Source: Xanthobacter autotrophicus (GTDB taxonomy: Bacteria; Pseudomonadota; Alphaproteobacteria; Rhizobiales; Xanthobacteraceae). From it: a DNA stretch of 64,000 nt. The stretch is from positions 1 to 64,000 of the forward strand of contig NZ_VAUP01000004.1 in assembly GCF_005871085.1 (NCBI RefSeq). Reading direction: 5' to 3'. Positions within the stretch are counted from its first letter, which is position 1; each line of letters opens with the position of its first letter. A program made the position numbers and the translations under genes. The notes below the pieces were generated by a model. That model saw only the letters and a list, made by a program, of their open reading frames with translations, did not search any database and had not been told where the DNA came from. Positions 4,776 through 24,759 of the stretch are shown here, piece after piece.

Positions 4776-6350
4776 TCAGCCGGCCAGGGTCGCGTGGACC
4801 GCAGGTTCGGCTTCGTCAGTGTCCGCGAAGCCGTCGCTTTGGCCCATGGCCGTTTCGCCGTCTTTTCTCACCGTTTCTTCACTGGCCGGTTCCGGCGCGA
4901 GCCTCCCGTCGGTCTCGGCGTACCCTGGCGTGCGCAGCGGCTCGGGCAGCCAGCCGGTCTCGGCGAGCAACGTCTCCGCCTCGGTGGCCATGTCGCCCTT
5001 CTTGAGGTGGGCGAGCTCCGTCATCAGCCGGTCCGAGAGCGGCGACAGGCCGTCATCTTCTTCGGGCTCCGGTGCTTCGGCGTCCGTGGTGACGGCATCC
5101 GCATCGTGGCTGTCCGCGGCGACCACACGCCCGCCGTCGCCCGCGCCCAGGTCAGCCTCCGGTTCGGCCGGCGCTTCGTCCTCGGGGCGGACATAGCCGC
5201 GCTCGACCCGCAGGCTGCCGTCATGGGCGATGCTGACGAAGGCGCCGGCCCGGGCAATATCGGATGGATCGAAGGCGAGCGGCCGATCCTCCCAGGCTTC
5301 GAGCTCGGCCTCCAGCTCGCCGAGGCGGGCGTCGATGTCGTCCGGCAGCTCGTCGGAGGCGTCATAGTCCTCCGACAGACGATCGTATTCCGCCTGTACG
5401 GCGTCCCGGGCGGCTTCCTCCTCGGTCGTCAGGGGAACCGGCTCGCCGCGCAGCTGGCGCAGGCCGAAGGTGTGGCCATAGGCGAAGTCGGGCGCGACCT
5501 CGATCCATTTCCACCCCTCGGCGGCGATCACCTCGGAGTCCGCCCTCAGCTTGTCGCCCACCATCCGGTCCACCAAGGCCACATCCTGCAGCCAGCCGCC
5601 GTCATCACCCTGGAACAGGTCACGCAGGATTGTGCCGCCGGCCTCCACGTAGGCCTCAACGCCGATGAACCGGGCCCGCTTGTCGGAGGCGCGCACCGCG
5701 CCTTCGGTCAGCATGCGGCGGATGACATGGGGCTGCTTGTCATAGGATTGCTGCAGCCGCTCGAACACCTGCTCCTGGCGCTCGTGGTCGCCCGACACAG
5801 TGAAGGCCATGAGCTGGTCCAGCGACATGCCATCCTCGGCGTAGGTGTCCAGCAGCCTGGGCGAGACCGAGGCGAGCTTCAGGCGTTGCTTCACGACGCC
5901 CACCGAGACGAAGAAGGCGGCGGCGATCTCCTCCTCGGACTGCCCTTTCTTCCGCAAGGCGAGGAAGGCCCGAAACTGGTCGAGGGGATGGAGCGGTGCG
6001 CGCTGGACGTTCTCGGCGAGGGAGTCCTCCTCGGCGATGCCATCCTCGCGCACGACGCACGGCACGGGCGCGCTCCTGGCGAGGCGCTTCTGCTTCACCA
6101 GCAGTTCAAGCGCCCGGTAACGGCGGCCGCCGGCCGGGATCTCGAATAGGCCGGTCTCGACGCCATCGGCGTCGACCACCGGCCGGACGCTCAGGCCCTG
6201 CAGGAGGCCGCGGCGGGCGATGTCCTCGGCCAGCTCCTCGACGGAGACGCCGGCTCGCACGTGTCGGACATTCGCCTGACTGAGCACGAGATGATGGAAG
6301 GGAATGTCGCGCGAGGGCGACAGGGTGATCTTCTTCTTCGCGATGGCCAT
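4776..6350 (-). CDS. ParB/Spo0J-like nuclease-domain protein with an internal deletion
   Basis: The 524-residue product starts with the ParB N-domain (about 15-115): LSQANVRHV, then IPAGGRRYRALELL (the GxRR box) and LAENVQRAPLHPLDQ. A helix-turn-helix-type segment follows (about 120-165, SEEEIAAAFFVSVGVVKQRL), then a long acidic middle. Family members on rhizobial elements usually reach about 700 residues. Here SDRLMTEL at about residue 445 runs straight into AHLKKGDMA and the normal end ETGWLPEPLRTPG, so roughly 170 residues between these blocks appear to be lost in frame. It probably binds element DNA in partition or regulation. A structured leader and CGGAG precede the start. Confidence 0.85.
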   Translation of the reverse strand: MAIAKKKITLSPSRDIPFHHLVLSQANVRHVRAGVSVEELAEDIARRGLLQGLSVRPVVDADGVETGLFEIPAGGRRYRALELLVKQKRLARSAPVPCVVREDGIAEEDSLAENVQRAPLHPLDQFRAFLALRKKGQSEEEIAAAFFVSVGVVKQRLKLASVSPRLLDTYAEDGMSLDQLMAFTVSGDHERQEQVFERLQQSYDKQPHVIRRMLTEGAVRASDKRARFIGVEAYVEAGGTILRDLFQGDDGGWLQDVALVDRMVGDKLRADSEVIAAEGWKWIEVAPDFAYGHTFGLRQLRGEPVPLTTEEEAARDAVQAEYDRLSEDYDASDELPDDIDARLGELEAELEAWEDRPLAFDPSDIARAGAFVSIAHDGSLRVERGYVRPEDEAPAEPEADLGAGDGGRVVAADSHDADAVTTDAEAPEPEEDDGLSPLSDRLMTELAHLKKGDMATEAETLLAETGWLPEPLRTPGYAETDGRLAPEPASEETVRKDGETAMGQSDGFADTDEAEPAVHATLAG

Positions 6351-6365
6351 CGGGATGATCTCCGC

Positions 6366-6406
6366 GACGGGCGGCCGAGAGCCTCTCTCTCAGCTCCAAG
6401 CCCGTC
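6366..6406 (-). ncRNA. Structured mRNA leader of the parB-like gene
   Basis: On the minus strand an outer stem GACGGGC (6400-6406) pairs with GCCCGTC (6366-6372). It encloses an inner 7-base-pair hairpin, CTGAGAG with CTCTCGG, around the loop AGAGG (6382-6386). The structure ends 15 bases before the ATG at 6350, next to the CGGAG ribosome binding site. A second copy with compensatory stem changes, the same loop and the same 15-base distance precedes the DUF932 gene (7744-7783). A cis-acting control element for translation is the likely role. The structure comes from base pairing read by eye. Confidence 0.65.
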
Positions 6407-6490
6407 ACGAAGCGAAGCGCCGCCCTCTGCCTCTGAGGACGGCGCCGCAAAGCCGACGATCCGGAAAGCCGGGAGAACGGGAAGGCACAA

Positions 6491-6522
6491 AGCCGGAGAC
6501 ACGGCTCTGCGTGTCTCCGGCT
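6491..6522 (-). terminator. Stem-loop terminator after the DUF932 gene
   Basis: GCCGGAGACAC (6492-6502) and GTGTCTCCGGC (6511-6521) form a perfect 11-base stem with an 8-base loop, 10 bases past the DUF932 stop on the minus strand. The following run of T is short, so termination may be partial and allow read-through into the parB-like gene. Confidence 0.65.
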
Positions 6523-6531
6523 TTGCAGAAG

Positions 6532-7728
6532 TCAGGAAGCCCGGTCGAGGAGCTTCTTCGCTCGTGCCTCCAGGTCGAGACGGGCGTCCTGGTGGGGCTT
6601 GTCCCGTGCCACCGCGGTGATGCCCTGCACGAAGTCGAAGACGCTCTCGGGCTTGCGCCCCTCTTCGGCGAGCACAGTCTCGATGATTTTCGAGGTCTCG
6701 GCCTTGGAGAAGCCGCGCTTGCGCAGGAAATCGCTGCGGTCCTCGTCGGAGCGGGCCACGATCTTCTCCCGCGCCGCCTTGATGCCGTTGACGAAGGGGA
6801 GGGGGGAGGAGTTGGCGAAACGGGTCAAAGCGGGCTCTGCCTCGTGGGCAAAGCGCGAGGCGGCGTACTTCGAGTGGCGGATGGTGATCTCTTCGAAATC
6901 CTCGACGCCCCACAGATTGCGGTTCTGGCACACGGCCCTGAGATAGAAGCTCGCGATGCCGAGGGTCTTCGCGCCCACCTCCGAGTTCCAGCAATAAAAG
7001 CCGCGGAAGAAGAGGTCGGGTGAGCCATCCGGCAGCCGGCCGGCCTCAATGGGATTGAGATCGTCCACCAGGAACAGGAAGACGTCCCGGTCCGAGGCAT
7101 AAAGGGTGGTGGTGTCCCTCGTGATGTCGACGCTGGGATTGTAGAGGCCGGTCGACCAGTCGAGGACGCCGGGCACCTTCCAGCGGGTATCCCCGGTGCC
7201 ATTGCCGGCGATCCGCTGCACGGCTGCGACCAGCTCATGGTCGTAGATCCGGCCATATTCCGCACCGGTGACGGCACGCAGCTCGATCCGGCCGTCCTCG
7301 ATCTCGAAAGTCTTGACCTGCTCGGCACGGTGGGAGGTGAGGCCATACTGCAGGTTGATGCCGGCGAGCGGTGCCGGGAGCTGGCGCAGATACGCCGCCG
7401 GCGCCCCGACGAGGCTCGCAAGCTGGCCGAAGCTCCAGTGCGTCGGGGCGAGGGGGGCGTCCGAGCCCGGCAGCATCAGGGAGAGGCGCTCGGCGTCCTC
7501 TCGGCTCGCTTCCACCCGGATCGCCGCGCTCTCCACCGTCCGGGTGCGGCTGCGCTCGGTCCGGCGGGACACGGCGGCGAACAGGTCCGACAGGGACAGG
7601 TACCGCTCGTCGTCGGGCCGGGAGAACCACTCCGAGGACACGCGGCCAATCCGCTCGCCGCGGCTCACATCCACCTTGTAGGCACCGGCACTCGAGGGCG
7701 CCGCGTCCAGAGTCACCACCTGGGTCAT
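6532..7728 (-). CDS. DUF932 domain protein
   Basis: The 398-residue protein belongs to the DUF932 family (phage/plasmid-like proteins of unknown activity, common on rhizobial elements). Visible family features are an N-terminal region with LSLSDLFAAV, LAGINLQYGLT at about 135, RAVTGAEYGRIYDHELV, the VFLFLVDD strand, FFRGFYCWNSEVGAKT and AVCQNRNLWG. The ATG at 7728 is preferred because GGAGG stands 9 bases before it. An in-frame ATG at 7743 overlaps that binding site. The same covarying leader as on the parB-like gene precedes it. Between this gene and parB-like lies a stem-loop. Confidence 0.85.
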   Translation of the reverse strand: MTQVVTLDAAPSSAGAYKVDVSRGERIGRVSSEWFSRPDDERYLSLSDLFAAVSRRTERSRTRTVESAAIRVEASREDAERLSLMLPGSDAPLAPTHWSFGQLASLVGAPAAYLRQLPAPLAGINLQYGLTSHRAEQVKTFEIEDGRIELRAVTGAEYGRIYDHELVAAVQRIAGNGTGDTRWKVPGVLDWSTGLYNPSVDITRDTTTLYASDRDVFLFLVDDLNPIEAGRLPDGSPDLFFRGFYCWNSEVGAKTLGIASFYLRAVCQNRNLWGVEDFEEITIRHSKYAASRFAHEAEPALTRFANSSPLPFVNGIKAAREKIVARSDEDRSDFLRKRGFSKAETSKIIETVLAEEGRKPESVFDFVQGITAVARDKPHQDARLDLEARAKKLLDRAS

Positions 7729-7743
7729 GGGACCAACCTCCAT

Positions 7744-7783
7744 GACGGGCGCCGGAAGCCTCTCCTCCGGCCCTCAACCCGTC
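7744..7783 (-). ncRNA. Structured mRNA leader of the DUF932 gene
   Basis: This is the second copy of the leader found before the parB-like gene. The outer stem is GACGGG (7778-7783) with CCCGTC (7744-7749). The inner hairpin CCGGAGG with CTTCCGG holds the same AGAGG loop (7759-7763). Relative to the first copy three inner pairs change on both or one side but still pair (A-U to G-C, G-C to A-U, A-U to G-U). Distance to the start codon is again 15 bases. Confidence 0.65.
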
Positions 7784-7931
7784 ACGGAAACCCGATCCAA
7801 CCTCTCACTCTCGGGCGCAAAGCGCGTGTCCGGGAGGAGAGAACGGAATTCGGGCGCAAGCTCGGCCGGAATGCTCATCGCGGGGCGGCCTTGTCGCTCG
7901 ATCGGCATCCGCTTGGTCAGGGAGAAGCGCG

Positions 7932-9374
7932 TCAGCGGGACTTCACCAGCGACCAGAAGCCGGATTTTCGACCGTGGGCCTTTTCCAGGCTGGCACGGTA
8001 GTCCGCATGAGACACCCAATCCTTGAGTGTGCCGGCCTCTGCGGCGGCGCCGGGCGTCAGTTCGTCGAGCCGGGCGAGGTGGCGCGCCGCATGCGGATAG
8101 GCCTTGGAGCGGGCACGGGCGAGGATGTCGTCCAAAAGTGCTCGGTACAGGATGGTGGAGGCCAGGGGGTGATCGGCTGCCAGCGCGTCGGCCACCGGCG
8201 GCAACATATAATATTGGCGGCCCTCCCATTCGCCCCGGTGCGCGATCACAAGTCCGGCGGCGAGATCGAGCCGCGGCCATTCCATGAGGAATGCGAGCGC
8301 GTTGTAGATGTGCCCGGAGGCAAGCGCGTGGGCAAAGGCCCGGTCGAGGGTGGGAAAGTCCTCGAAATCGGGAAGCGCGGCGATGTATTCGCGCAGGATG
8401 CCGGCATCGAGCGAAGCCTCGAACGCCGACCAGCGCAGCGCCTGCGCATCACCCTTCCTGTCAAGCGCTTCCAGGATCTTCGCCTCGATGCTGGTGCGTC
8501 GCGAGAACGGGTCAGGGTCCGGCCCCAGCCCATCGGCAAGATCCATGGCTGACAGATAGGCGATCCGCCGGGATGCGGGACGGTGGATCCAGTCGAGCGC
8601 CTCTTGCGCCCGGCCTGCCTCCAGCAGGCGTGTGGCAACGTCGATGGTGTCCTGCAGGTTCGGAGGCTTCTTCGCCTCCAGGGCGATCAGCCCGTCGAGA
8701 TCGCCGAGCTTCTCGGCGATGATCTGACGGATCTCGCGAACTTGCGAGCCATTCGAAAAATGGTTGCGATGCGCCGTCGCGTCCTGCGCACGCTGGTGCG
8801 CATCGAGATCGGCATCCCAAGCGCAAAGCGTGCCCCTCGGCAGGTGGTCCGCCACAGCCCGCGCGACATCCACCAGATAGCCATGGGACGTGTTTCCCAA
8901 CGCCGCCATGATCCGCGCCGGCAATTGCGTGGCATCGGCCTGCGCAAGCCTCGGCGTCAGCATGCCGGCGGCGGTGATGGCCTGGTCATAGACACTCTGG
9001 ATACGGCCGGAGGAATCGTCAATCCGCTCGAACACGCTCTCATGGGTGGCGATGAAGCGCAGCAGCCGATCGAGGGCCATCACCGGCGAGGCCTCCCCCA
9101 GCTCGTCGCAGATCACCGCGACGGTCGTGGCCAGGTCGTCGCGGAAGGCCCGCGCCCTCTCCCAGTCGATGAAGCCGCGCGCTTTTTCCAGAGCGGACAG
9201 GCGCTGATCGACAATCCCGGCGATGGCGTCGGGCCCCTTCTGCCCGGCCAGCGCCGCCGAGACCAGCCTGCGGAACGGCACGCTGCGCTCCGCCTCGTCC
9301 AGCACCAGCCGCGCCAGCTTCGCGGCACCCAGGGCCGTCAAGGCTTCGATGGAAAGGGCGGGCTTGCGCACCAT
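7932..9374 (-). CDS. DUF6880 family protein
   Basis: The 480-residue cytoplasmic protein consists mainly of helices, rich in alanine and leucine, resembling a repeat solenoid (segments such as LLEAGRAQEALDWIHRPASR and the C-terminal LASTILYRALLDDILARAR). It ends in a short basic tail. I match it to the DUF6880 group found on alphaproteobacterial elements. Function is unknown. The start MVRKPALS is chosen because homologous sequence begins there and GGAAG precedes it. The frame stays open to 9491 without support. It lies upstream of DUF932 on the same strand, 200 bases away. Confidence 0.7.
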   Translation of the reverse strand: MVRKPALSIEALTALGAAKLARLVLDEAERSVPFRRLVSAALAGQKGPDAIAGIVDQRLSALEKARGFIDWERARAFRDDLATTVAVICDELGEASPVMALDRLLRFIATHESVFERIDDSSGRIQSVYDQAITAAGMLTPRLAQADATQLPARIMAALGNTSHGYLVDVARAVADHLPRGTLCAWDADLDAHQRAQDATAHRNHFSNGSQVREIRQIIAEKLGDLDGLIALEAKKPPNLQDTIDVATRLLEAGRAQEALDWIHRPASRRIAYLSAMDLADGLGPDPDPFSRRTSIEAKILEALDRKGDAQALRWSAFEASLDAGILREYIAALPDFEDFPTLDRAFAHALASGHIYNALAFLMEWPRLDLAAGLVIAHRGEWEGRQYYMLPPVADALAADHPLASTILYRALLDDILARARSKAYPHAARHLARLDELTPGAAAEAGTLKDWVSHADYRASLEKAHGRKSGFWSLVKSR

Positions 9375-9908
9375 GGCGAGGCTTCCGGCAATGTCGACCG
9401 CATGCCTATGTCCTGATCTGCGTCGGATGTCGACGGCTGCCGGATCGCGTGGATGCCCAAAACCGCGCTCATGACCACACGGGGCGGCCATTATTGGAAC
9501 GCCGGACTTGCCGACTGGTCGAAAAGGGGCCCTGACACGAATCGGTGAACGCCGATATACGCTCTATTATCTGAAGCTAGCGGGAGCGGCAGAAGAGCCG
9601 TAAGCCCTGGAGCGCTAGGGGGTTAACCTTTGCCTCCATGCCGCCCACGCAACGGGCAAGGTGCGCCGGGAGTGTGGGAGGCTTGGTCGCGCCAGCAGCA
9701 GACATTGGCCGGGCGCCAGTTTTCAGACATTCGGCAGGGCGAGGCAGCCCCGACTGATTTCGACCCGATGCAGGCTTACGACGAGTTCGACGCCACGCGC
9801 TCAACCGCAATGTCCAAAGCGGGCCAGTTTCCAAGCTCAGTTTGAACGACGTCTCATCGAAATAGGGTGGCGATATGGCGTCACCAAGCAGGAACGTAGG
9901 GGCAAGAG
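9375..9908. other. Intergenic stretch without a recognised gene
   Basis: About 530 bases lie between the DUF6880 gene and the small secreted protein. Only short or arginine-rich open frames occur on either strand. The part around 9560-9600 is less GC-rich and may hold divergent promoters. No repeat or RNA gene was found. Confidence 0.5.
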
Positions 9909-10286: not shown

Positions 10287-10451
10287 CCGTCGCTGAGCCC
10301 GCGTGCCGAGGTCAGGGCCGCCTGGCGATGGCGGCTCCCTCAACCCGGATCTGCACCCTTCAGAACCGCACGACGGCTACGTAGTGCTATTGGCCCAATT
10401 AATAGCGTGGCCTCGGAAAATGTCAGGCTTAGCGCCTCTAAGCGCCGATGT

Positions 10452-11973
10452 CGTTGAAAAAGTCGGCGCTGGAGGCCCGCTGACAGGGGCGTTGGTGTCG
10501 GGCGTGCGCCTCCTCCTTCACGCCGTCGCCGCTCTCGGCCCATCGGGTAGCAGCTTTGCGAGCTTCCTGAGGTTCTGGGCGGCGGCCGCGAGGTGGAACT
10601 CGTCCTGGGCTCCGTTGGGCCCGCGTAGTCGCAGGCGGTCGAGCCTCAAAATGCGCTTGAGGTGAGCGAAGAGCATCTCAACCTTCTTCCGCTGCCGGCG
10701 TGAGGTGACGTAGTCGTCCGTAGCGGCGATGTCCCTCGCCATGTCTCGGGCCCCTTCGTGGATCGAACGCGGGATTTTGCGGGCGGGCGTATTGGGACAG
10801 CACTTCGGCTTCAATGCGCAAACCTCACAGTCCAGTTTGCTAGCGCGGTACCGCATCATGCCGTCATCGTCGACAAGCGGACGCGGCATCCGGTAGGCCT
10901 TCTGCCGCTGCCGCAACGGCTTGCCGGCCGGACAGATATAGGCATCCGCATCGCGATCGTAGGTGAAGTCCGACCGGCTGAAGGTGCCGTCCTGCCGGTC
11001 GGATTTGTCGAACACCGGGATGTGCGGCTCGATCCCGCGCTCGTGGACCAGCTAGGCGAGGTTCTTGGCCGAACCATAGGCGCTGTCGGCGGCGAGGCGC
11101 ACAGGCCACAGGTCGAAGCGATCCTGGGTGCGCTCGATCATGGTGCGCGATGCCCCGACCTCCGCCTGCCGGATGGCGCGGCAGGCCTCCACATCGACGA
11201 TGACGGCGTGATCGAGGTCGATCAGGTAGTTGGTGGCGTAAGCGAAGAAGGCATGGCCTTTCAGGGCTCCGGTCCATTGCGCCGCCGGATCGACCTGGAG
11301 ACGAACTTCGGCTTCACCTCGCTCGCTGCGCCCCAGGCGGCCTCGTCGAGCGTGTCGAGATATTCCCGGACCGAACGGCGCGTCTCGGCGAGACCCTCCC
11401 AGTTCACCTGTTCCGAGGCCGCGGCGGACCGCTGCTTGTTGGCATCGGTCTTGATCAGGCTGGCATCGACGGCGAAACCCTCGCCGCCGACCAGCCCCTC
11501 TTCGATGCAACGCCGCACCGTGGTTTCGCACAGCTCCCGCAGCAGGTCACTGTCGCGGAAGCGTCCGTGGCGGTTCTTGGAGAAGGTGGAGTGGTCGGGC
11601 ACAGCGCCTTCGAGGCCGAACCGGCAGAACCACCGATAGGCAAGGTTGAGATGGACCTCTTCGCACAGCCGCCGCTCCGAACGAATGCCGAAGCAATAGC
11701 CGATGAGCAGCATCCGGATCATCAACTCGGGATCGATCGAAGGCCGGCCCGTCTCGCTATAGAACGGCTTGAGGTGCGCCCGGATGCCAACAAGGTCGAC
11801 GAACCTGTCGATGGCCCGCACGAGGTGGCCGGCAGGAACATGGCGTTCGAGGCTGAACTCGTAGAACAGCGCCTCCTGCATCACCATCCGCTCGCCCATC
11901 ATCTGCCCGGCCTCCCATTACAGGACAACTGAATCAGGACTTCACCCCTGCAGCGATGCCGACTTTTTCAACG
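10452..11973 (-). mobile_element. Decayed IS1182-type insertion sequence
   Basis: The 16-base sequence CGTTGAAAAAGTCGGC stands at 10452-10467 and its exact inverted copy at 11958-11973, framing about 1.5 kb that holds one broken transposase gene. These are taken as the terminal inverted repeats. I could not see a convincing target duplication in the flanks. The element lies inside the accessory island, between the secreted protein and the oxidase operon. It may have supplied transcription or rearrangement at that junction. Confidence 0.8.
10518..11902 (-). pseudogene. IS1182 family transposase, frameshifted and with a stop
   Basis: The N-terminal part (11902 to about 11265) reads MMGERMVMQEALFYEFSLE and carries the family DDE beginnings (RPSIDPELMIRMLLIGYCFG, EGFAVDASLIKTDANK). 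Near 11265 the frame shifts. The continuation has GHAFFAYATNYLIDLDHAV and LAADSAYGSAKNLA and then meets TAG at 11052-11054, where relatives have a tryptophan in a LAWLVHERG-type sequence. After the stop the same frame continues with LVHERGIEPHIPVFDKS, the Cys-rich CEVCALKPKCCPN and the C-terminal KKVEMLFAHLKRIL. One frameshift and one nonsense change make it inactive unless read through. Confidence 0.85.
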
Positions 11974-12534
11974 GAATCCGCCAGAAGCGGACATTGGCGG
12001 GCGGGCGTAAGCGGACCTTCAGGTGTTGCCCCGATCGGCGTCCGCTTTCAAAGCCGAAGTTACCTTACGAGCCGTTCAGCAGCCGCCGCAGCGACCAACT
12101 CGTTGCGGTCTTGAGCCAAGAGGGTGAGCACTTGATGCGGACATTTGGCGTTCTATGCCACCCGCAGCTTCATCGCGAACCCAACCGGCCAAAAGATGGG
12201 TGCACAGCGGGACTGATCCCCCCGTTCTGCGCTGGTTGCCAACTTCCGTCAGCTCCCAGCCCATTGCGCGCGACTGCGCCCTTGAAGTCATCCACTTCTC
12301 ATCGTCGCGCCTGCGGCAAGGGTATCCAGCTTCATAATATTCGTGAATATTCAATGACGTGGCCGTCCAATCAATACTACATTTCAGATGACCTTGCGGA
12401 GGCTTCGCAACTGCTCTGTCGTGCATGCGCCCTCGCCATCACGAATCCCCGCAGATGTATATTGACATTTTATGCAATTAATCGTTGAAATTCTCGCGAG
12501 ATACTCCCGAATTTCATCGAGGTCGGAGGGGGCG
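11974..12534 (+). promoter_or_regulatory. Upstream region of the oxidase operon
   Basis: This 560-base stretch has no convincing gene but is clearly more AT-rich towards its right end. It contains a perfect palindrome AATATTC-GT-GAATATT at 12336-12351. There is also a promoter-like pair: TTGACA at 12462-12467, then 17 bases, then TGAAAT at 12485-12490, about 45 bases before the oxidase start codon. The palindrome lies about 120 bases upstream of that promoter and could bind a regulator. Both are sequence-pattern calls without experimental support. Confidence 0.45.
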
Positions 12535-15500
12535 ATGGCAATTGCACGCGTGGCGATTCATCCTGCGATCGGCATCATGCGGGTCGGTAACAGCGAAGAC
12601 GGCTATTTCGTTGGCCCTGAAGTTCCTGGCGCGCGCATCCGGGCGGAAGGCGGCTTCAAAGATAACGACGGTACGTCGAGCAAGGTCAAGCGCGAAGCCG
12701 CACGGTTCCGGGTTTTCAGTTTCGACGAAACCGGCGCCTGTGTCGGCGAGTTGTCGCCTACCGATGGGCAGATCGAATGGTCGGTGACGCTCGCCAACAC
12801 CAAGGCCGAATGGGACCGGTTCGAGGGCACCAGCGGCGAGGAACTGCCGATCAACGGCCGGCGGCCCGGTGCCTACCGGAATCGCGATGTCGGCGACCTC
12901 GATACCGACGACGGCCGCAGGGCCAGGGATCAGCTCAAGATCACGCCTCAAGCCGTAACACTTCAGGGTCCCAATCAGCGCGGAGCGTTCGACGACGGCC
13001 GGTTCTTCGATATGGTGGTCCCGCTCGGCGAGGCGCGGACCGATGAAGACGGCCGCCTCTTGGTCTTGGGTGGGCGCGGCGTTTCCGCGCCGTATATGCC
13101 GGGCCAACGCATCTCGAACTATGCGAACAATGACTGGTGGCACGATGACGTCAGCGACGGCCCGGTCACTGCGAAGGTGAAGCTCGGTGACGGCCGCGAG
13201 CTTGTGGCCGATCCTGCCTGGGTGATCTGCGCGCCGCCCGACTTCTCGCCCGACACCATCAATGTCGTCACCCTGTTCGACGTAGTCGTCGACACCGCCA
13301 TCAAGGCCGGCTTCGCCAAGGCGCCCAAAGAAATTGACTTCTATCGCGACATCCAGCCGATCCTGAACCGGGGGCTGCAGGCCGCCTGGACCAGCGGCCG
13401 GGCGTATGAGGGCCATGCTAGCAGTGACATGTTCGACTGGCAGATTCTCGGCAATCCCGCGAAGGAGACGAAAAAGGCCCGCGAGGCGATGCTGGCGCGC
13501 ATCCGCAACCCGCATCTGACCGGCGCCGAGGCCGTGGCGCAGGCCAACGAGCGCTTCATGCCCGCCCTTGCGGGCGACAATGGCGACTGCGCCGACGGCA
13601 AGCCCGATCATTGGTTGCACCTGACGGTCACGCAATACGACATGCTGGTCCGCTGGACGAAGGGCGACTTCAAGACCGGGACGCCTGTCCAGGTCGATAA
13701 TCGCATCACGCCCGAAGGTCTCGACAGGGCCGCACTGGAGGCGTGCGCCGGCGGGGCCTTCTATCCGGGAATCGAGGCGGGCTGGATCACCCGCAATCCC
13801 GCTTCATACGTCGCGATGGGGCGGCTCGACCCGGCAAAATTCGTGGCGGGCGACCTCACCAAGCGCATGGCAGTGCCGTGGCAGGCCGACTTCTTCGAAT
13901 GCAACACGTGGTGGTGGCCGGCGCAGCGTCCGGATTACGTGGTGCCGGCGGACGTCTACCGACGGATCGAGCAGATCGAGGCTGAACTCGCCAATGCCGC
14001 TCTGGGCACGACCGGCGGGGATCAGGTGATCCGCGACGAACTCACCAGCGAACGTGCGACGCTCATTAAGCGACGCGAGCTCTGGAGCCGCGGCCTCGCC
14101 GACCCGGACGCCGCCAGCTTGGCCGTACACGACGGTGACCATGCGATGGTAAAGGCGTGGAACAGGCTCGGGTTCGTCGTGGCGATCGCGGATGACGGCA
14201 CGCCCTATAAGGTGGACGGCGAGCCAGTCCTGCTGGAGACCGACCGTGCGCTCGGCTCCGACATGAGCCTCGCCGAAGCCTTCTATCGGCTGGTCAACAT
14301 CGAGCGTTTCCCCGAGTTCAGGCCGATGGCGAAGCTCATCGCCGAGGAGATGCTGAGCAAGGCGAACTACGGGGCTGATTCGCTACTTTTGCCGTTCCCC
14401 TACACGGTCGACGCGTTCCGCGCCCGCATGAACGCCATCTACGACGGCGACGTTGCGGTCATGGACGACCCGGTCGGCCTTACCAAATATTCAAAGGCGA
14501 CGGTCGTGGAGAACCTGCGCCAGAAGGCGCCGATGAACCTCGTCGATGGGGCATGGCTTGCCAACATCATGTCGGTCGGCCCGTGCGACGACGTGCGGGC
14601 CCGGTTGTTCTCGATCTGGAACGACGAGGTCGGCAACGGCACGACCGAACTCAACCACTGCAACGTCTATGACGCGCTGCTTCGCAGCGTCGATGTCTAC
14701 CTGCCGCCGATCACCACGGAGGCTTTCCGTGATCTCGACTTCATTCCGTCGGCCTGGGAAAGTCCGGTGTTCCAGGTAGCGGTCGGGATGTTTCCCGAGA
14801 GCTTCTTTCCGGAACTGCTCGGGATGACGCTTTACCTGGAGTGGGAAGCGACGCCGACCCTGTTACCTGCAGCCAAGTTCTACCAGGGGATTGGCATCGA
14901 TCCGCAATTCTACCGGATGCACGCCGGGATCGACAACGTCACCACCGGCCACGGCGCCTTGGCGCGTGAAGCGATCGAGCTTCACCTGGACGAAGTCCGC
15001 CGTGGGGGTGGTGACGACGCAGTCCAGGCCGAGTGGCGTCGGATATGGAACGGCTATGTGGCCTGGTCCACTCTCGGCACCTTCGGAAAGGACCTTGGCG
15101 TCTATCTCGACAAATTCGAGGGCAACGCTGGCGTACCGACCCCGGATTACGCCCGCGCCCGCATGGCCGATCTCATCCGCAAAAAGGCACAGTATGCCCG
15201 CACCGCGCACGGTGCGAGGGTGCTCGGCGCCAAGCCCCTCGGCGAGTTGTTCGCCGATCCCGATGCGCTGATGGATGCGCTAGCAGCCTCGACGCTGGTC
15301 AATCCCGACAGCCCGCGCGACAGCAAGTTCATCACCGATACGATCAGCTTCCGCGGCCCCATGTACAAGGTGTTCAATCCGAAGGAACTGGACGTCGTCC
15401 TCGACTGGATCGGCAGCCTGCGGAAGGAGGCGCCGCCCAGTCCGGGGCCGGCGCCGGGCAAGAGCGCGGATCGCGTCTTCAAGGTGATCAGCGACCACAT

Positions 15501-15897
15501 CGCTCGCGCCGCCCAGGCGCCGGAGCACAAAGAGCCGATGCTCCCCGATCCGGCGGGCAAGCCGAAGGCGCTTGCCGACTGGTTCGCGGCGGGCGACGTC
15601 GACGCCTTGATGACCGCCCTGGCTGCAAGCCGGTATATCGTGGCTGGCAACGCTGACGGCAGCCAGCTGATTACCATCTTCACCGGCCAGATGGTCGGGG
15701 TGCTGACAGCCGACGAGGTCGACGCCTTCCGCAGCTGGATCAAGGACCGGTGCCCGGCGCGGGGCGCGCACGTCGCGGCCGGCCTCTTCATTGAGAAGGT
15801 GAACTTCGCCCTGCCGAACCTGCTTGCGCCGGATGATCGGGAGGCGGTGCCCTACGGTGTCCGTCGCCAGCACATCGGCGTCGGGTCCCTGCACTAG
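12535..15897 (+). CDS. LodA/GoxA-type CTQ oxidase fused to a haem-oxygenase-like diiron domain
   Basis: The protein has 1120 residues, starting MAIARVAIHPAIGIMRVGNS after a strong GGAGG. Residues 1 to about 575 are a LodA-like oxidase, a family that oxidatively deaminates free amino acids using cysteine tryptophylquinone. C404 (in EACAGGAFYP) and one of W459-W461 (in NTWWWPAQRPDY) are the likely cofactor pair, by comparison with LodA. Residues about 580-850 form a second domain with a six-ligand diiron set of the haem-oxygenase-like oxygenase type: E698 and H708, E769 (in YLEWEA), then H796, D800 and H806. A 250-residue tail follows, with two similar blocks (LFADPDALMDALAAS and WFAAGDVDALMTALAAS). 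There is no signal peptide, as in LodA. The lodB-like gene follows after 3 bases. Substrate is unknown. Confidence 0.85.
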   Translation: MAIARVAIHPAIGIMRVGNSEDGYFVGPEVPGARIRAEGGFKDNDGTSSKVKREAARFRVFSFDETGACVGELSPTDGQIEWSVTLANTKAEWDRFEGTSGEELPINGRRPGAYRNRDVGDLDTDDGRRARDQLKITPQAVTLQGPNQRGAFDDGRFFDMVVPLGEARTDEDGRLLVLGGRGVSAPYMPGQRISNYANNDWWHDDVSDGPVTAKVKLGDGRELVADPAWVICAPPDFSPDTINVVTLFDVVVDTAIKAGFAKAPKEIDFYRDIQPILNRGLQAAWTSGRAYEGHASSDMFDWQILGNPAKETKKAREAMLARIRNPHLTGAEAVAQANERFMPALAGDNGDCADGKPDHWLHLTVTQYDMLVRWTKGDFKTGTPVQVDNRITPEGLDRAALEACAGGAFYPGIEAGWITRNPASYVAMGRLDPAKFVAGDLTKRMAVPWQADFFECNTWWWPAQRPDYVVPADVYRRIEQIEAELANAALGTTGGDQVIRDELTSERATLIKRRELWSRGLADPDAASLAVHDGDHAMVKAWNRLGFVVAIADDGTPYKVDGEPVLLETDRALGSDMSLAEAFYRLVNIERFPEFRPMAKLIAEEMLSKANYGADSLLLPFPYTVDAFRARMNAIYDGDVAVMDDPVGLTKYSKATVVENLRQKAPMNLVDGAWLANIMSVGPCDDVRARLFSIWNDEVGNGTTELNHCNVYDALLRSVDVYLPPITTEAFRDLDFIPSAWESPVFQVAVGMFPESFFPELLGMTLYLEWEATPTLLPAAKFYQGIGIDPQFYRMHAGIDNVTTGHGALAREAIELHLDEVRRGGGDDAVQAEWRRIWNGYVAWSTLGTFGKDLGVYLDKFEGNAGVPTPDYARARMADLIRKKAQYARTAHGARVLGAKPLGELFADPDALMDALAASTLVNPDSPRDSKFITDTISFRGPMYKVFNPKELDVVLDWIGSLRKEAPPSPGPAPGKSADRVFKVISDHIARAAQAPEHKEPMLPDPAGKPKALADWFAAGDVDALMTALAASRYIVAGNADGSQLITIFTGQMVGVLTADEVDAFRSWIKDRCPARGAHVAAGLFIEKVNFALPNLLAPDDREAVPYGVRRQHIGVGSLH

Positions 15898-15900
15898 GAG

Positions 15901-16908
15901 ATGCGGGATCAGGTGACGGTATTCGGTACAGGCGTCGCCGGCTTGTCGGCGGCGCTTGCGCTTCAGGCCGGTGGCACGCGGATATTGATGGTGGAGCGCG
16001 GGAGCCCGCGCCCGAGCGATGCTCGGGAGGTCGTCGGCGACGAGTTCTTCAGGTTGATGGCCGCGGCAGGCCATCCAGACCTGCGCAGCGAACTTCAGCC
16101 GCTGATCCCTGTCGACGCGATCACGACCCATTGGCCCGGCAATTCAGGGCTGGACTGGGCCGCGGTCTTCCGGCCAGCCGAGCGCCGATGGGCGATCGAC
16201 CGGTCGGCGCTGGAAGCCGCACTTCGACGGTCGGTCCTAGCCCACGGAATTGAAATAGCCCCCGGCGGCGACAAGCTTCGGCCGGACGAGATCCGAGGTC
16301 TGGTTGTCGACGCGACAGGACGAGCTGCGGCCGTGGCGCGCCGAATAGGCGCAAGACTCGTGCCGATCACCGGCTTGGTCGCCATTTCGGCTCGAGGGCA
16401 TTTCGCCTGGCCCACCACGCCCGTCGTCGAAGCCGGCCCGGATGGCTGGTGGTTCGCGATCGGCGGTGATCAGGCGGCAACGACCTATTTCACCGATGCG
16501 GCCGAGGCGGCAACGATCCAGACGGCCGAGAATCTCGCAGCTCGTCTGGCGAAGACCGTTTTGTTGTCGGGACATTTCGCAGTCGACATCTCCGTTGGCC
16601 TGACGCGATCATCAGCGGCATCAAGCTATCTGGAGCCTTGCGGGGGCGCTTCCTGGGCCGCGGTCGGGGATGCGGCGCTGGCGCGCGATCCGCTAGCCTC
16701 ACACGGGCTGACCTTCGCGGTGCAATCCGCGCTTCATCTCAAGGCGGCCTGCATGACGGAAACGTTTGACGCCGAGACCTATCTTCAGCCGGTTTCGGTC
16801 GAGATCGCGCGTTATCGGATCGCGCGCCAGCGGCTCTACCTGGCCGGCGCGGAAGCGTTCGATCGGCCATTTTGGCGGGCTCGCGCTTCTTTGACGACTG
16901 CGGGCTGA
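15901..16908 (+). CDS. LodB-type FAD-dependent oxidoreductase
   Basis: The 335-residue flavoprotein has an N-terminal dinucleotide-binding motif GTGVAGLSAALAL (about residues 9-21), a glutamate-ended second strand (ILMVERG) and a downstream GD motif in AAVGDAALARDPLASHGLT (about 257-275), as in tryptophan-halogenase-like and LodB-like enzymes. LodB proteins are required to form the quinone cofactor of the paired LodA. The gene begins 3 bases after the oxidase stop, so the two are translated together. It is somewhat shorter than most relatives. An IS3 end lies just after its stop, so slight truncation is possible though the end looks natural. Confidence 0.8.
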   Translation: MRDQVTVFGTGVAGLSAALALQAGGTRILMVERGSPRPSDAREVVGDEFFRLMAAAGHPDLRSELQPLIPVDAITTHWPGNSGLDWAAVFRPAERRWAIDRSALEAALRRSVLAHGIEIAPGGDKLRPDEIRGLVVDATGRAAAVARRIGARLVPITGLVAISARGHFAWPTTPVVEAGPDGWWFAIGGDQAATTYFTDAAEAATIQTAENLAARLAKTVLLSGHFAVDISVGLTRSSAASSYLEPCGGASWAAVGDAALARDPLASHGLTFAVQSALHLKAACMTETFDAETYLQPVSVEIARYRIARQRLYLAGAEAFDRPFWRARASLTTAG

Positions 16909-17463: not shown

Positions 17464-18489
17464 TCACTTGCCCAGCCCCGTGAGAATCTCGGCAATTTCC
17501 GGCTCGCGGCTGAGGCTTGCCTCCAACCGCTTCCGCCAGCTCGAGCCGCTCCTCAGGACGACCTCGTGGGCCTCTGCAAGATCGTCCGGGCGATCCTCGG
17601 CGAGGATCCGGATCAGGAAAGCCGCCTGACGGCGATCCTTCACGGATTTGAGGCTGTCCGGCCCCGTCTGGCGCCGGTCTGCAATGATGAGCTTGTGGAT
17701 CGCGAAGCGCTCCGGACGCGGAATCCGAACGAGGACGCCGGATCGATAGGGAACCGCGGCGTTGATGGGCTCGGCGACCAGATAGTTGAGGTAGTGCAAC
17801 GACTGTGCGTACACGCCGAGAGCGGCGAGCGGCTTCAGTCCCTCGTCGTCCTCGAACGAGGGCGTCAGGAACTCGACGAGCAGGTTGCTTCTCGTCTGCC
17901 GCCAGCGCCACACTTTCTCGGGTTCCAATGTCGGAACGGGTTCGAAGGAGAAGTCGGACAGCACCTGCTGGAGGGTGGGGGACACGGTGTCCGCTAGCGC
18001 CAACGACAGGCGCTCGAAGCTTGCGATGTCCAGATCATCGGTCATCGCTGCGTCCTCGAACCCGTAGGTCACACCCAACTCCCCTTCGTAGAGCCTGAAG
18101 GCATGGGTGCCCACGATGGTCCCGCCGAGGCGAAACACGCCCGCGCTCTCCATGCTCGCGAGCAGACTTCCAGTTCCGGGATCGACGGTCATGAACCGCT
18201 CGGCGCGCAGGATGCGGATCAGTCGCGAACGCTGCTTTCTGCGTTCATCGGCATCCCGGCGCAGCTCGCTCAAACGATTGAGACGGGCCCGCAATTCATC
18301 GCTGTCCTCGCCGATGTATTTCTTCATGACATCGGAGCCGACCCGGTAGGTGTCGTACCAATAGGTCCGCGCACCCCGTTGAACCCTAGTGGGGGTTCCG
18401 CGAATGTCCGAGACCGCCTCATCCTCAAGCGAGCGGATGAGATCGAGGTAGGCCGCGTGAGCGATGGTTGAGTGCCGAGCGATGGCCAT
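17464..18489 (-). CDS. GSU2403-type nucleotidyltransferase-fold protein
   Basis: The protein has 341 residues from the ATG at 18489 (MAIARHSTIAHAAYLDLI). An N-terminal block YLDLIRSLEDE and the conserved RGTPTRVQRG...TYWYDTYRVG are followed by a nucleotidyltransferase-like core: GTIVGTHAFRLYEG (about 130-143), then an acidic TDDLDIASFE (about 156-165) that would bind metal. The family has the fold of polymerase-beta-like transferases and no assigned reaction. Some relatives of the wider fold are toxins. The alternative start at 18525 lies inside a palindromic repeat pair that probably regulates the gene. A broken PIN-domain gene stands divergently next to it. Confidence 0.7.
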   Translation of the reverse strand: MAIARHSTIAHAAYLDLIRSLEDEAVSDIRGTPTRVQRGARTYWYDTYRVGSDVMKKYIGEDSDELRARLNRLSELRRDADERRKQRSRLIRILRAERFMTVDPGTGSLLASMESAGVFRLGGTIVGTHAFRLYEGELGVTYGFEDAAMTDDLDIASFERLSLALADTVSPTLQQVLSDFSFEPVPTLEPEKVWRWRQTRSNLLVEFLTPSFEDDEGLKPLAALGVYAQSLHYLNYLVAEPINAAVPYRSGVLVRIPRPERFAIHKLIIADRRQTGPDSLKSVKDRRQAAFLIRILAEDRPDDLAEAHEVVLRSGSSWRKRLEASLSREPEIAEILTGLGK

Positions 18490-18553
18490 GTTCAACAGTT
18501 CCGAATCTCGTTGAACATACCCCATGCTCAACGCTTATCAAGTTGGTTGAACA
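18489..18553. promoter_or_regulatory. Two tandem palindromes, likely operators
   Basis: Two copies of TGYTCAAC, a 13-base spacer, and GTTGAACA occur at 18489-18517 and 18525-18553. Their starts are 36 bases apart and both spacers are exactly 13 bases. The arms extend to CATG on the left and AT on the right. The first overlaps the ATG of the nucleotidyltransferase gene. The layout, two identical dyads on the promoter side of a gene, is that of a cooperative repressor site. Confidence 0.6.
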
Positions 18554-19045: not shown

Positions 19046-20431
19046 TCATTTTCCAGGCGGCAACGTGGGAGGCTCTATGTTGGCTTCCCTTCTGGCAGCC
19101 TCTATTGCCCGTTGTGTCGCACGTTCACCAAGCCAGGAGCGAACGGGGTTGTCCTTTCCGATCAGGTCGCCCAGTGCGCCGAACATCGTGTTGCTGATCG
19201 CCTGCTGCTGGGTGCGAAGGTGATCCTCCAACAGCTTGTGCCGGGAAATATAGCCCGCATTGACGCCCGGAATAGCGTGGTTCATCAGCAGACGCGCGTC
19301 AAACTCCGAAACACCAGCAGGGGTTGCGAGGGTGCGGAACGTCTGGCGCAAATCATTGCCCCACTTCGCCAGGACGTCCCGATCCTCCTTCTGCTCGGCC
19401 AGATGTCCGCTGTCGCTGTCCGCTGGGAACAGCCAGTCGTTAGCCTCGGCCGGATAGAAATGTCGGGCGAATCGGATCACCCGCATGAGGCAAAGGATCA
19501 TCTGCCGCGATAGTGGAATGTCGAACGCGCGGTCGGCGCCACCTTTGGGGCGGGGAATGTGCAGGACCCGGCGGCGCAGGTTGAGGTGCTTCGGCTTCGC
19601 CTCCATCAACGCCGTAGGCCGGCATCCTGAGAGCAGGGAGAACAGGTGGAACTCACGCCGAATAGGGTTGGGCAGGGCCGCCGCTTGCTGGAACCAGTGC
19701 GGCAGGTCATCCAGTCCCATGGCGGTGTTCCGGCGTTCCTCCGAATTCCAGTCAACGACGCTTGCCGGATTGTCCGGTGGGAGGGAGCGATGCGCCTTGC
19801 GCGCGTGATTGTAGATGGCGCGAAGCGTCCGCATGCTGCCATTGGCAATGTAGGGACCGTGCTCCGCTGTGATCTCGTCGTGCCGAGCAATGACCTTTCC
19901 GGGATCGTCGGCGAGTTCCTGGAAGGGGAGGTCGAGCCAATCCTTGAAGAGGCGCTCGACGTGATCGCGGTAGCCTTCGATCGTTCCTTCGCTTCGCCCC
20001 TTCCGGATCAGGTGCGCATCCCGATAGCGTTCCCATGCTTGTCGCAGGGTGACGCCTTTGGGAGTCATGTTCTGATCTGACCCCTGAGCTGCCTCCCCAG
20101 GGCTCTGTATAATCTCTTCTCCGGACGCTTGGGTGTCAGCCGCTTTCGGATTGGGATGCTCGCCGTTGGAGATCTGCGCGAGGTATGTTTTTGCAGTTGC
20201 GCGGGCCTCACGAGTGGACATGGTGGTCGTGTCGCCAATGCGCACTGAGACCGAAGCGACGCGCTTGCCATCCTTCCGGAGGTCTCCTTGAACGGCGAAG
20301 ACCTTGGTTCGCCTGCCGACCACGACGTGGAAGCCCTTGAGCTGGGTGTCGCGGGCGCGGTACTGCCCCGAACCGGGTGGTTTCAGGTCGCCGACCGACC
20401 TGTCGTTGAGGAGGATACGGATGTCGGCCAT
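19046..20431 (-). CDS. Tyrosine-type site-specific integrase
   Basis: The 461-residue recombinase begins MADIRILLNDRSVGDL. It has an N-terminal arm-binding-like domain, a SAM-like core-binding domain (about 160-260, RQAWERYRDAHLIRKGRSE), and a catalytic domain with R in SGCRPTALMEA, K in RPKGGADRAFDIPLS, the NDLRQTFRTLA box (asparagine where many have histidine) and Y in GVNAGYISRHKL. It is the integrase expected for a genomic island. A tRNA-Arg 3' fragment lies 190 bases upstream of its start, so it probably recombines at that tRNA. The start is set by the conserved first methionine; the longer open frame upstream crosses the attachment region. Confidence 0.85.
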   Translation of the reverse strand: MADIRILLNDRSVGDLKPPGSGQYRARDTQLKGFHVVVGRRTKVFAVQGDLRKDGKRVASVSVRIGDTTTMSTREARATAKTYLAQISNGEHPNPKAADTQASGEEIIQSPGEAAQGSDQNMTPKGVTLRQAWERYRDAHLIRKGRSEGTIEGYRDHVERLFKDWLDLPFQELADDPGKVIARHDEITAEHGPYIANGSMRTLRAIYNHARKAHRSLPPDNPASVVDWNSEERRNTAMGLDDLPHWFQQAAALPNPIRREFHLFSLLSGCRPTALMEAKPKHLNLRRRVLHIPRPKGGADRAFDIPLSRQMILCLMRVIRFARHFYPAEANDWLFPADSDSGHLAEQKEDRDVLAKWGNDLRQTFRTLATPAGVSEFDARLLMNHAIPGVNAGYISRHKLLEDHLRTQQQAISNTMFGALGDLIGKDNPVRSWLGERATQRAIEAARREANIEPPTLPPGK

Positions 20432-20751
20432 AGCGCAAATCCTGCAATTCCAGCGTATGTCGGCCCAAAATTCAGCCGGTTTTTCAGCCGGTTTTAGACT
20501 CGCACAGGGGCAGGTGGTATGTCCACGCCAGAATGCGAGATTTCTCACAATCGCATGATAAACAAGATGAATTTTTGACTTGGGCGAAAGCCGGATAGAG
20601 GCGGCGAGCGATAATAGTAAACTACGAATCTGGGGGTCGGGAGTTCGAATCTTCCCCGGCGCGCCACCCAACTCCAAGACAATAAAAGAGTTTTTGACGC
20701 CGAGGCAATGGCGTCAAGCTTGATGTCTCGGCTTGGGTCATCACCGGGTCA
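20432..20751. other. Attachment region, no protein gene
   Basis: About 320 bases between the integrase start and the truncated DMT gene. It holds the integrase promoter region, the tRNA-Arg 3' fragment at 20622-20666, and about 85 bases of apparently chromosomal DNA beyond the proposed island end. Confidence 0.6.
20622..20666 (+). other. 3' half of tRNA-Arg(ACG), proposed attachment site
   Basis: The sequence reads as a tRNA from the anticodon loop onward: loop CTACGAA (20622-20628, anticodon ACG), 3' stem strand TCTGG, five-base variable loop GGGTC, T arm GGGAG-TTCGAAT-CTTCC (20639-20655), acceptor strand CCGGCGC, discriminator G and CCA (20664-20666). The 5' half is missing: upstream bases do not pair with TCTGG. 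Integrases that use tRNA genes leave such a 3' copy at the far end of the island, so this should be the right junction. The intact gene would lie left of the window. Confidence 0.7.
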
Positions 20752-21072: not shown

Positions 21073-21314
21073 TGCGCGCTCCTTTGCGGCGTTTTTTACG
21101 CGCGTGGCGCGGGAGAGGAAACGGCTGGTACCCATACACCTGCGACGCGCTCCACCAGCTTCTCTGCGGCGTGTTCGTGGTGAAAGAGGCCAGCAGGTAC
21201 CGTCGCCGCGCCAACGGCGGACCGGCGGCGAGGGTGGCAAGGCCCCGAAAGAGAAATAGGAGCAGGGTGGCGCCGCGCGCCGGGCGCGGGATCAGGAGGG
21301 GCACAGCTGGCGCC

Positions 21315-22971: not shown

Positions 22972-24759
22972 TCAGAAGGTGATGCCGGCCTGGACCAGGC
23001 CCACGGTGTTGCCACGGCTGTAGCCGGCCTGGGCCTCGTTGCCGCCCACGCTCCAGGCGAGATACGCCTTCAAAAGCAGGTTGCGGCCGGGCATGTATTC
23101 GTAGTTGCCGTAATAGCCGAGGCCCATGTCGCCGAGCTGCACATAGTCGGGCTGGGTGATGGTGTAGGCGCCGTTTTCCAGCGCCACCCCGCCCACGTCG
23201 GCAAAGGCGCTCACGGCATGGTGCCAGCCGTAGATGTCCGGCAGGGCGTATTTCAGTTCCGGCGTCACCAGCCAGCCACTGTCTCCCGAGAGCCCCTCAT
23301 AATAGCTGCGCACGCCGAAGATGCCGGTGAGGGAGAATTGCTCGGAGGAATCCAGGTTGCCCGAGAACGACTTCTGCCCGCGCACGTTCACCGACAGGGA
23401 CAGCTTCTCCAGCAGCGCGACCGTCATCACGAAGGACAAGGTGAGCTTGGAGAAGTCGCCCTGGGTGTCGGCGCCGAGCAGATTGGCGAGCGCCTGGTCG
23501 GCGTCGGGGAAGTCCACGTTGCCGAAGGTAACGGCCACCGCCGTGGAGGTCACCACCGGCATGTTCAGCCAGGGCAACACGCCGGAGGTGTCTCCGTTGA
23601 GGCCCACTATGCCCTCGTTGATAGAGCGGTTGGCGTAGGACACGCCCAGGGTCTCGTCATTGAGGTTCTTGTAGGTGTAGGCCGCGCTGCCCCAGACCGA
23701 GGCCGCCCGCGAGCGCAGCACCGGATAGAGCAGGGTGCCGGAGACGCCGTCGGCGACGCCGGTGGCGTTGAGGTCGGCATAGGTGTCGCCCAGCGCATAG
23801 GTGGTGCGGAAGGCCGCCACCTCCGCCCTCAGGCCGTCGTACCCAAGCGGCAGGGCATAGGCCACGCGCCCGTTGAGCATGTCGGTGGAGTTGGAGACGA
23901 GGCCGAAGGCGGAGAGCCGGTCGCCGATGCCCAGAGGCGAATTGATGTTGAAGCCGCCCGAGGCGCGCCAGATGCCGGTATAGAGCGTGCCGAAATTGTC
24001 GCCCATGAGAAAGCCGTCGATGAGGCGCTGCTCGGGCACGTCGAACAGGAAGTCCGAGGCGCCCTGGGTCGCGCCCGCGCCGATCACCGCCCGCGGCATG
24101 CCGGCGCCGGCGAGGTCGGAGATCAGCAGCATGGCCCGTTCCAGCCGGGCCTGCTCGATCAGTTCGCCGGTCGTGACCTTCTGGGTGTCGAGCGTGCCCT
24201 GAAGCATGAAGTCCTTCACCCGGCTGTCGTTCTTGACGGTCACTTGGCCGTAGCGGCCGGGCACCAGCTTGAAGGTGAGCGTGCCTTTCCGCGCGTCCTG
24301 CTGCGGCACATAGACTTTGGCCACCAGGTATCCGGCCTCGCGATAAAGCGCGGTGACCTTGTCGGCGGCAGCGTAGATCTCGGCGAGGGTGAGCTTTTTG
24401 CCCTCATAGGGCGTGAGCGCCGCGCGCAGCTTTTCCTCGCTCACCGTAAGCCCTTCGGTGCCGGTGACGGCGATGTGGCGCACGTGGAGGGTGGTCTTGT
24501 CGGGGAGCACCAACTGCGGCTCGGCCAGCTTGGGCAGGACCAGGGGCGCGACCTGCTGCGGCTGGGGTGCGGCCTGCTGGGACTGCTGCGCGTCGCGCAC
24601 CGCATCGCCGATGTTGAAGGGCAGGCCCTGGGCGAGGGCCGGTGCCGGGACGAGCAGAGCGACCGCCGCCGCGCGGGCGAGGCCTGAAGTGCTCGCGATG
24701 CCTCGAACACGTATGTGTCCTGGCCGGGACGAGCCGGCGGAAATCCTGGAACGGGTCAT
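22972..24759 (-). CDS. ShlB/FhaC/HecB family two-partner secretion transporter (TpsB)
   Basis: The 595-residue outer-membrane protein has a signal peptide ending PAPALAQG at about residue 44, then a linker rich in glutamine. POTRA domains follow (about 80-230; [20 protein letters not shown] and [28 protein letters not shown] are typical), and then a C-terminal beta barrel ending in phenylalanine (VQAGITF). It recognises and exports the exoprotein encoded just upstream. The ATG at 24759 is preferred over 24795 because the export signal then has a normal length. It is followed immediately by exbB. Confidence 0.9.

Follow-up and report, generated by a model that had tools for sequence, protein, structure and literature searches.

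On a 64,000-nucleotide stretch of DNA from Xanthobacter autotrophicus (the window; contig NZ_VAUP01000004.1, positions 1 to 64,000), a single gene encodes a LodA-like part joined to a C-terminal haem-oxygenase-like diiron oxygenase (HDO) domain, and it is followed directly by a gene for a LodB-like flavoprotein. The fusion is real, uncommon and conserved: twelve further fused genes, eleven with unbroken frames and one broken, bring the number to 13, and in all 13 of them the HDO lies C-terminal to LodA. With a probability of about 0.42, we take the protein to be a two-centre oxidative enzyme acting on an amine or amino acid; catalytic residues are retained in the sequence of both halves. The features that bear on this proposal are given below. 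Residues are numbered in the 1141-residue scheme, and subtraction of 21 yields the 1120-residue scheme used in the original prediction, which had been made from the letters of this DNA.

12535..15897, plus strand: fused LodA-HDO gene, 1120 amino acids (1141 from the upstream in-frame ATG at 12472)
12559..13230, plus strand: LodA_N domain, residues 30-253 (Pfam PF17990, E 2.7e-63)
13570..13935, plus strand: LodA_C domain, residues 367-488 (Pfam PF18417, E 2.8e-27)
13888-13890, plus strand: D473, conserved Asp from the GoxA alignment
13900-13902, plus strand: C477 (C456 in the 1120 scheme), candidate quinone cysteine from the LodA alignment
13915-13917, plus strand: W482 (W461 in the 1120 scheme), candidate quinone Trp from the GoxA alignment, with W481 (W460) as the alternative
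14512..15048, plus strand: HDO domain (Haem_oxygenas_2), residues 681-859 (PF14518, E 9.5e-20)
15127..15447, plus strand: tail domain T1, residues 886-992, with conserved H913 and M964
15469..15894, plus strand: tail domain T2, residues 1000-1141, a diverged T1 copy that ends in a conserved C-terminal His
15901..16908, plus strand: LodB-like flavoprotein gene, probable maturase, starting 3 bases past the fused-gene stop

The plus-strand frame is free of stop codons from 12472 to 15897, and its first ATG, at 12472, gives 1141 amino acids. ATG 12535 is probably the better start, because GGAGG (12525-12529) precedes it at a gap of 5 bases. LodA_N, LodA_C and Haem_oxygenas_2 each exceed their own Pfam gathering score in the window protein (71.6 bits against 28.9 for PF14518), so that the predicted union of a LodA-like part and a diiron domain in one open frame stands. 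In the NCBIfam comparison, the window protein reached 332 bits with the GoxA model (equivalog cut-off 750) and 191 bits with the LodA model (cut-off 600); since these scores lie below the equivalog cut-offs, neither lysine 6-oxidase nor glycine oxidase activity can be assigned. The LodB gene that had been predicted 3 bases downstream is likewise present. Its product matched the NCBIfam models QhpG (E 1.5e-30), LodB (1.1e-29) and GoxB (2.0e-29) at 103-107 bits, with equivalog cut-offs of 240-400, and thus appears to be a relative of LodB/GoxB/QhpG that scores below the equivalog level.

A search for proteins with both domains, suggested along with the original prediction, returned the twelve further genes, all with the same domain order. 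The unbroken ones were found at loci L002 (Pseudomonas sp. ACN8, where the 5' end is lost at a contig end), L040 (Paraburkholderia caribensis, on a named complete plasmid), L041, L042, L069 (two genes), L070, L071, L072, L073 and L094, while L074 holds the broken fused gene. The ten other fusions that were aligned are 34-51% identical to the window protein. A frameshift, a misassembly or a chance joining of two genes has next to no probability as the origin of the window gene: nothing was found in its favour, and because the 11 further unbroken genes, from 10 genomes or records and one of them on the named complete plasmid, share the domain order, the fusion is no assembly artefact. The counts that describe its rarity are lower bounds, few candidates having been scored per genome in each search. 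HDO-profile matches at E up to 1e-25 occurred in 4 of 296 genomes of the family (G000, G461, G487, G1019), all of them fusions; of the 14 genomes listed for the window's own genus, only that of the window itself matched the profile, and it was also the only fusion carrier in a phylum sample of 398 genomes. In genus g2, 6 of 195 genomes had a fusion, which is broken in one of the six. In the genus of G190, matches at E up to 1e-30 came from 18 of 249 genomes, and in none of these 18 did one frame match both halves. A single record out of 72,556 plasmid records reached at least 80% query cover, and two scans of viral contigs yielded no relative.

The residues of the quinone cofactor could be located by alignment. 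LodA C516, named as a cofactor residue in PMC4417212, falls on window C477 in a HMMER alignment to the solved LodA chain, and GoxA D678, named as a conserved Asp in PMC7876137, falls on D473 in the corresponding alignment to the GoxA chain, with W696-W697 on W481-W482. The cysteine proposed originally, C404 (C425 in our numbering), is conserved, but it is C456 (our C477) that aligns with LodA C516, and the assignment had to be corrected. For the tryptophan, W482 is the likely quinone residue and W481 the alternative candidate; we prefer the former because GoxA W697 is presumably the quinone Trp of GoxA. Both tryptophans are invariant in the 11 aligned fusions, C477 is kept in 10 of them (Arg in L041), and D473 in nine (Ser in L041, Gly in L073). 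L094 has the equivalents of both C477 and D473, and the cysteine for cysteine-tryptophylquinone (CTQ) is accordingly kept in 11 of the 12 unbroken fusions (10 aligned ones and L094). The broken L074 gene carries Arg in its place; it may be decaying or mis-sequenced.

The ligand set of the HDO part is complete. HDO enzymes share the ligand motif E-H-X-H-D-H, as given in PMC11363339, and the window protein has E719, H729, E790, H817, D821 and H827 (E698, H708, E769, H796, D800 and H806 in the 1120 scheme), in the right order, just as had been predicted. In alignments that covered a wider region (residues 598-880), none of the six varied among the 11 aligned fusions, the window protein included. 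They are also present in L094 and, by reading, in L057, a fragment of the broken L074 gene, and are retained in all 13 fused genes.

From the residues and from what is known of the two families, the following course of events can be proposed. LodB would help to convert W482 (or W481) together with C477 into CTQ, with which the LodA part would oxidise a primary amine with O2 to an aldehyde or keto acid, ammonia and H2O2. A diiron centre held by the six HDO ligands may then catalyse a further O2-dependent oxidation belonging to the same pathway, either an N-oxygenation or a C-C/C-H oxidation, and the fusion would hold the two centres together.

The two halves of the protein have separate histories. 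In a LodA tree of 55 rows (12 fusions and 43 proteins without HDO), the fusions fell in two places, and a single group was rejected by the approximately unbiased (AU) test (p 0.00101). A second tree with stricter columns and a careful search, for which 15 of the 55 rows were dropped (near-copies and the longest branch), again rejected a single group (40 rows, AU p 0.000122), and the fusions formed one group in 0 of 200 bootstrap trees. L074 was left out of the LodA trees, and the four-member LodA lineage (second L069 gene, L070-L072) sits on a long branch, where the AU test shares the weakness of the model. By contrast, an HDO tree of the 13 fusions and 17 of the 22 stand-alone proteins (L078, L102, L107, L109 and L111 were left out) placed the fusions on one side of a branch with a Shimodaira-Hasegawa-like approximate likelihood ratio test (SH-aLRT) value of 98, and the second L069 gene and L070-L072 grouped with L041/L073/L074 (SH-aLRT 92). 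Because the HDO parts form one clade and the LodA parts do not, the HDO-T1-T2 module must either have been joined to LodA on two occasions or have had its LodA part exchanged.

A LodB-like gene adjoins each of the 11 unbroken fusions that keep the CTQ cysteine (the LodB alignment comprised the window gene and eight such neighbours of other fusions), and at one L069 copy a gene for 130 amino acids stands between the two. No LodB-like gene was found in the fetched 20 kb at L041 and at L074. LodB is not absent from the respective genomes, since matches occur elsewhere in G461 (partial, E 1.4e-18; this assembly is 66% complete) and G872 (E 1.2e-70). Two members of one sub-lineage, L041 and the broken L074, have lost the CTQ cysteine and the adjacent LodB gene but kept the HDO ligands.

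These two members bear on two other explanations of the fusion. The HDO could be the principal enzyme, with a LodA part that serves chiefly for binding or as a structural platform and whose own oxidase activity is optional, as one might suspect from the retention of the HDO ligands in 13 of 13 fused genes and the loss of the CTQ cysteine in 2 of 13, both without an adjacent LodB gene. We consider such a division of roles unlikely: 11 of the 12 unbroken fusions keep the cysteine, each with a LodB gene that would be needless for an unused cofactor, and W481 and W482 are invariant in all 11 aligned proteins. Alternatively, the HDO might act in cis on the LodA part, for instance in the first Trp hydroxylation of CTQ formation, a step that in LodA and GoxA is, according to PMC7876137, thought to be autocatalytic, and copper-dependent in LodA. 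There are precedents for HDOs acting on a protein-derived Tyr or Trp (CADD/NePabS; described in PMC13108848). However, maturation of LodA and GoxA proceeds in proteins that lack an HDO domain, and L041 and L074 keep the HDO ligands where the known CTQ cannot form; a maturation role in cis is very unlikely.

A flavin amine oxidase gene (Amino_oxidase) adjoins the L041 fusion, and at L073, which retains the cysteine and LodB, a flavin amine oxidase homologue lies one gene away; none was found at L074. The original suggestion, two oxidations on one substrate or use of the peroxide, is a reasonable hypothesis. Since a single HDO clade is combined with LodA parts of two lineages, and since a flavin amine oxidase stands beside the L041 fusion, which has lost the quinone cysteine and the adjacent LodB, the comparative evidence leans towards functional coupling of the two halves. 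The coupling might run through peroxide, with the LodA part as a built-in H2O2 generator that charges the HDO (diferric centre plus H2O2 to a peroxo intermediate), which would therefore need no reductase. Such a role would fit the flavin amine oxidase, by family a peroxide source, next to a fusion that lost its CTQ cysteine, as well as the homologue near L073, whose conserved Asp is Gly; catalase-fold domains, too, are fused to LodA-like proteins (21 of the 28 in Table 3 of PMC4417212). However, L041 and L073 are closely related, at 57% identity, so that the flavin oxidase represents one event and not two, and L073 keeps the cysteine and LodB. Many LodA proteins lack an HDO, and a term search of the text available from a 2026 HDO review (PMC13108848) returned neither 'hydrogen peroxide' nor 'H2O2' nor 'peroxide shunt'. 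On balance, we regard coupling through peroxide as rather improbable.

Two profile searches of PDB chains raised, for the HDO part, the 'iron-containing redox enzyme' 9pfw (E 0.0036 and 0.0048), PbrRohS 9pfx (0.0065 and 0.061), SznF (0.17-0.19, then 0.069-0.086) and, in the second search only, HrmI (0.029). These chains are N-oxygenases or their kin, which we count in favour of the two-centre oxidative enzyme that we propose. Several findings weigh against it. Unrelated PDB chains scored like the weak HDO matches (STIM1 at 0.018 and the hemerythrin domain of DcrH at 0.059 in the second search, curcumin synthase at 0.16 in the first). AlphaFold yielded unusable models, with a predicted local distance difference test (pLDDT) score of 42.9 for the HDO with its tails (544 amino acids) and 32.5 for the 1120-residue protein, the alignment input being L002 only in both cases. 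In addition, a strict dependence of the HDO on the quinone is contradicted by L041 and L074, which keep the HDO ligands without the CTQ cysteine. The window holds no evident pathway gene apart from LodB, and no common pathway is visible across the fusion loci because the neighbouring genes vary: none is common to all, and LodB itself is missing at two. A phmmer search with the whole window protein against PDB chains found LodA and GoxA but, up to an E value of 0.1, no chain of an HDO. Given the unusable AlphaFold models and the weak PDB matches, HDO membership rests on the Pfam match and the ligands.

The neighbours at the other loci are diverse. At each of the four loci L069-L072, genes of the thiamine-diphosphate decarboxylase type and of the S10 peptidase type lie upstream of a fusion. 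At L040 a prokumamolisin-type (S53) peptidase gene is positioned just upstream, with octopine-dehydrogenase-type, tyrosinase and SCO genes farther on, and the neighbours at L042 include multicopper-oxidase-like, SCO and cytochrome c-containing genes. An adenosine monophosphate (AMP)-ligase gene follows LodB at L094, and the gene after LodB at L071 (12881-14611) has weak matches of the PAP2/vanadium-chloroperoxidase type. Stand-alone HDO relatives on an S. meliloti plasmid and a Streptomyces plasmid are sited among likely natural-product genes. This setting, too, we count in favour of the two-centre enzyme. The gene sets at these two stand-alone HDOs comprise a nonribosomal peptide synthetase, an acyl carrier protein, a ketosynthase III and an acyl-CoA dehydrogenase, or a phosphoenolpyruvate mutase, a ketosynthase III, a P450, an ATP-grasp and a SidA-like protein.

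In the window protein, the HDO is followed by T1 and then T2, together a conserved companion of HDOs. T1, about 100 amino acids long, had no confident Pfam match in 25 domains scanned. Its profile matches a second site in the window (15565-15765, E 1.1e-9), which is T2, and 23 of 23 other HDO proteins scanned (22 stand-alone ones and L094). A survey of 239 genomes at E up to 1e-5, with no more than 20 candidates scored in each, detected T1 in 10 proteins, every one an HDO protein already found; in the genomes sampled, T1 is confined to HDO proteins. The stand-alone relatives are organised as HDO-T1 (445-598 amino acids) or HDO-T1-HDO (723-758 amino acids), and in the latter the first HDO copy scores much lower. 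H913, S951, M964 and F968 are invariant in 25 aligned T1 domains (25 of 34 were included in this alignment, A7, and nine left out), and the His and Met are present in 34 of 34. The C-terminal His of T2 is kept in all 11 aligned fusions. H1019 of T2 is invariant in the fusion alignment but not in L041/L073 in a separate T2 alignment, and we do not claim it as such. The conserved His and Met suggested a degenerate c-type cytochrome, an idea that found no support: the 11 Pfam families listed for the 25 T1 domains, with E values of up to 10 admitted, included no cytochrome family (HMMER filters discard most matches above about 0.1), profile searches gave no PDB cytochrome match, and no CxxCH was seen by eye in the match columns of 23 T1 alignment rows. 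Weak matches of the winged-helix type (MarR in 6 of 25, best E 0.0028; PqqD in 1 of 25, E 0.0013) provide a lead only.

Two further features flank the operon.

10444..11981, minus strand: insertion sequence (IS)-like element with 24-nucleotide inverted repeats and transposase pieces at 11261-11902 (DUF772) and 10518-11015 (DDE)
19046..20677, minus strand: integrase gene (Arm-DNA-bind_3) near the right island edge, with 97% identical DNA in G520

The IS-like element ends about 550 bases upstream of the fused gene. Similarity to the genus relatives G486 and G534 resumes at about 21201-21313, and for the 6.2 kb to the left of the resumption point in G534, the rest of the window's genome contained nothing beyond short matches. 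The mobile island in which the operon had been placed is thus supported by the IS-like element upstream, the integrase downstream and the similarity resuming at 21201, but its left edge is unseen, the window beginning at the contig start. The predicted regulatory region of the operon is not supported: G+C is lower locally (59.5% over 12001-13000 versus 63-65% for the four kilobases around it), but no sigma-70-like site turned up ahead of the fused gene in a simple consensus scan. Other minus-strand genes of the window include a nucleotidyltransferase gene (PF12281, E 1e-64; 17464-18531) between operon and integrase, without a PADLOC match, and genes at 2422-9491 with YspA-like SLOG, Toprim, ParB_N and DUF6880 domains, of which the DUF6880 protein has a weak PADLOC match (PDC-S62, E 8.7e-5). 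At 22972-28292 (minus strand) a two-partner secretion (TPS) pair, a ShlB/POTRA transporter and a 1103-residue TPS/GLUG protein, lies in DNA largely common to G486 and G534.

As had been stated originally, the fusion has no established function. In Table 3 of Campillo-Brocal et al. 2015 (PMC4417212), 5 of 168 LodA-like proteins carry pfam14518, with the function left open; among the papers listed in a search limited to open PubMed Central, this was the only one we recognised as treating the combination, and a term search of the accessible text of PMC4699246 found no fusion terms. The five proteins resemble our 13 in uniting LodA and PF14518, but the paper places pfam14518 in the N-terminal region, whereas it is C-terminal in the 13 genes read here. 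The same paper counts 21 fused LodA-like proteins with a catalase-fold domain and two with a vWA domain. In the former (pfam00199, group III) LodA is likewise joined to a metal- and peroxide-handling fold, although this is a haem catalase fold and N-terminal according to that source. Two loci of the same genus, L036 and L031, encode LodA proteins with a C-terminal Vgb/NHL-like propeller (the Vgb cut-off is passed in L036 and just missed in L031), a fusion type that does not appear in Table 3 of PMC4417212. LodA (L-lysine 6-oxidase) and GoxA (glycine oxidase) share with the window protein LodA_N, LodA_C, the Cys, Asp and Trp of CTQ and a maturase-like gene downstream, but the window protein has HDO-T1-T2 in addition and scores below their equivalog cut-offs. 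The HDO N-oxygenases RohS, HrmI/BelK and SznF have the same six-ligand set E-H-E-H-D-H, though the profile matches are weak. Stand-alone HDO-T1 and HDO-T1-HDO proteins ('iron-containing redox enzyme family') have the same HDO and T1, but no LodA part and no recognised T2. The LodA-PF14518 combination as such, without a function, has been in print since 2015. New here are the position of the HDO at the C-terminal side of LodA together with T1/T2, the reassignment of the quinone cysteine, the origin from two lineages and the existence of members without the quinone cysteine.

Few activities have been assigned in either the HDO or the CTQ oxidase family. An unlikely possibility is that the fusion is a self-sufficient, peroxide-driven diiron oxygenase, in which the quinone oxidase makes H2O2 from an amine and passes it straight to the HDO of its own polypeptide; if true, this would explain the repeated fusions of LodA to metal domains and the flavin amine oxidase beside an unbroken quinone-less fusion. 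A comparison of the intact with the quinone-less members offers a natural experiment on whether the diiron site relies on its quinone partner, be it for substrate or for peroxide.

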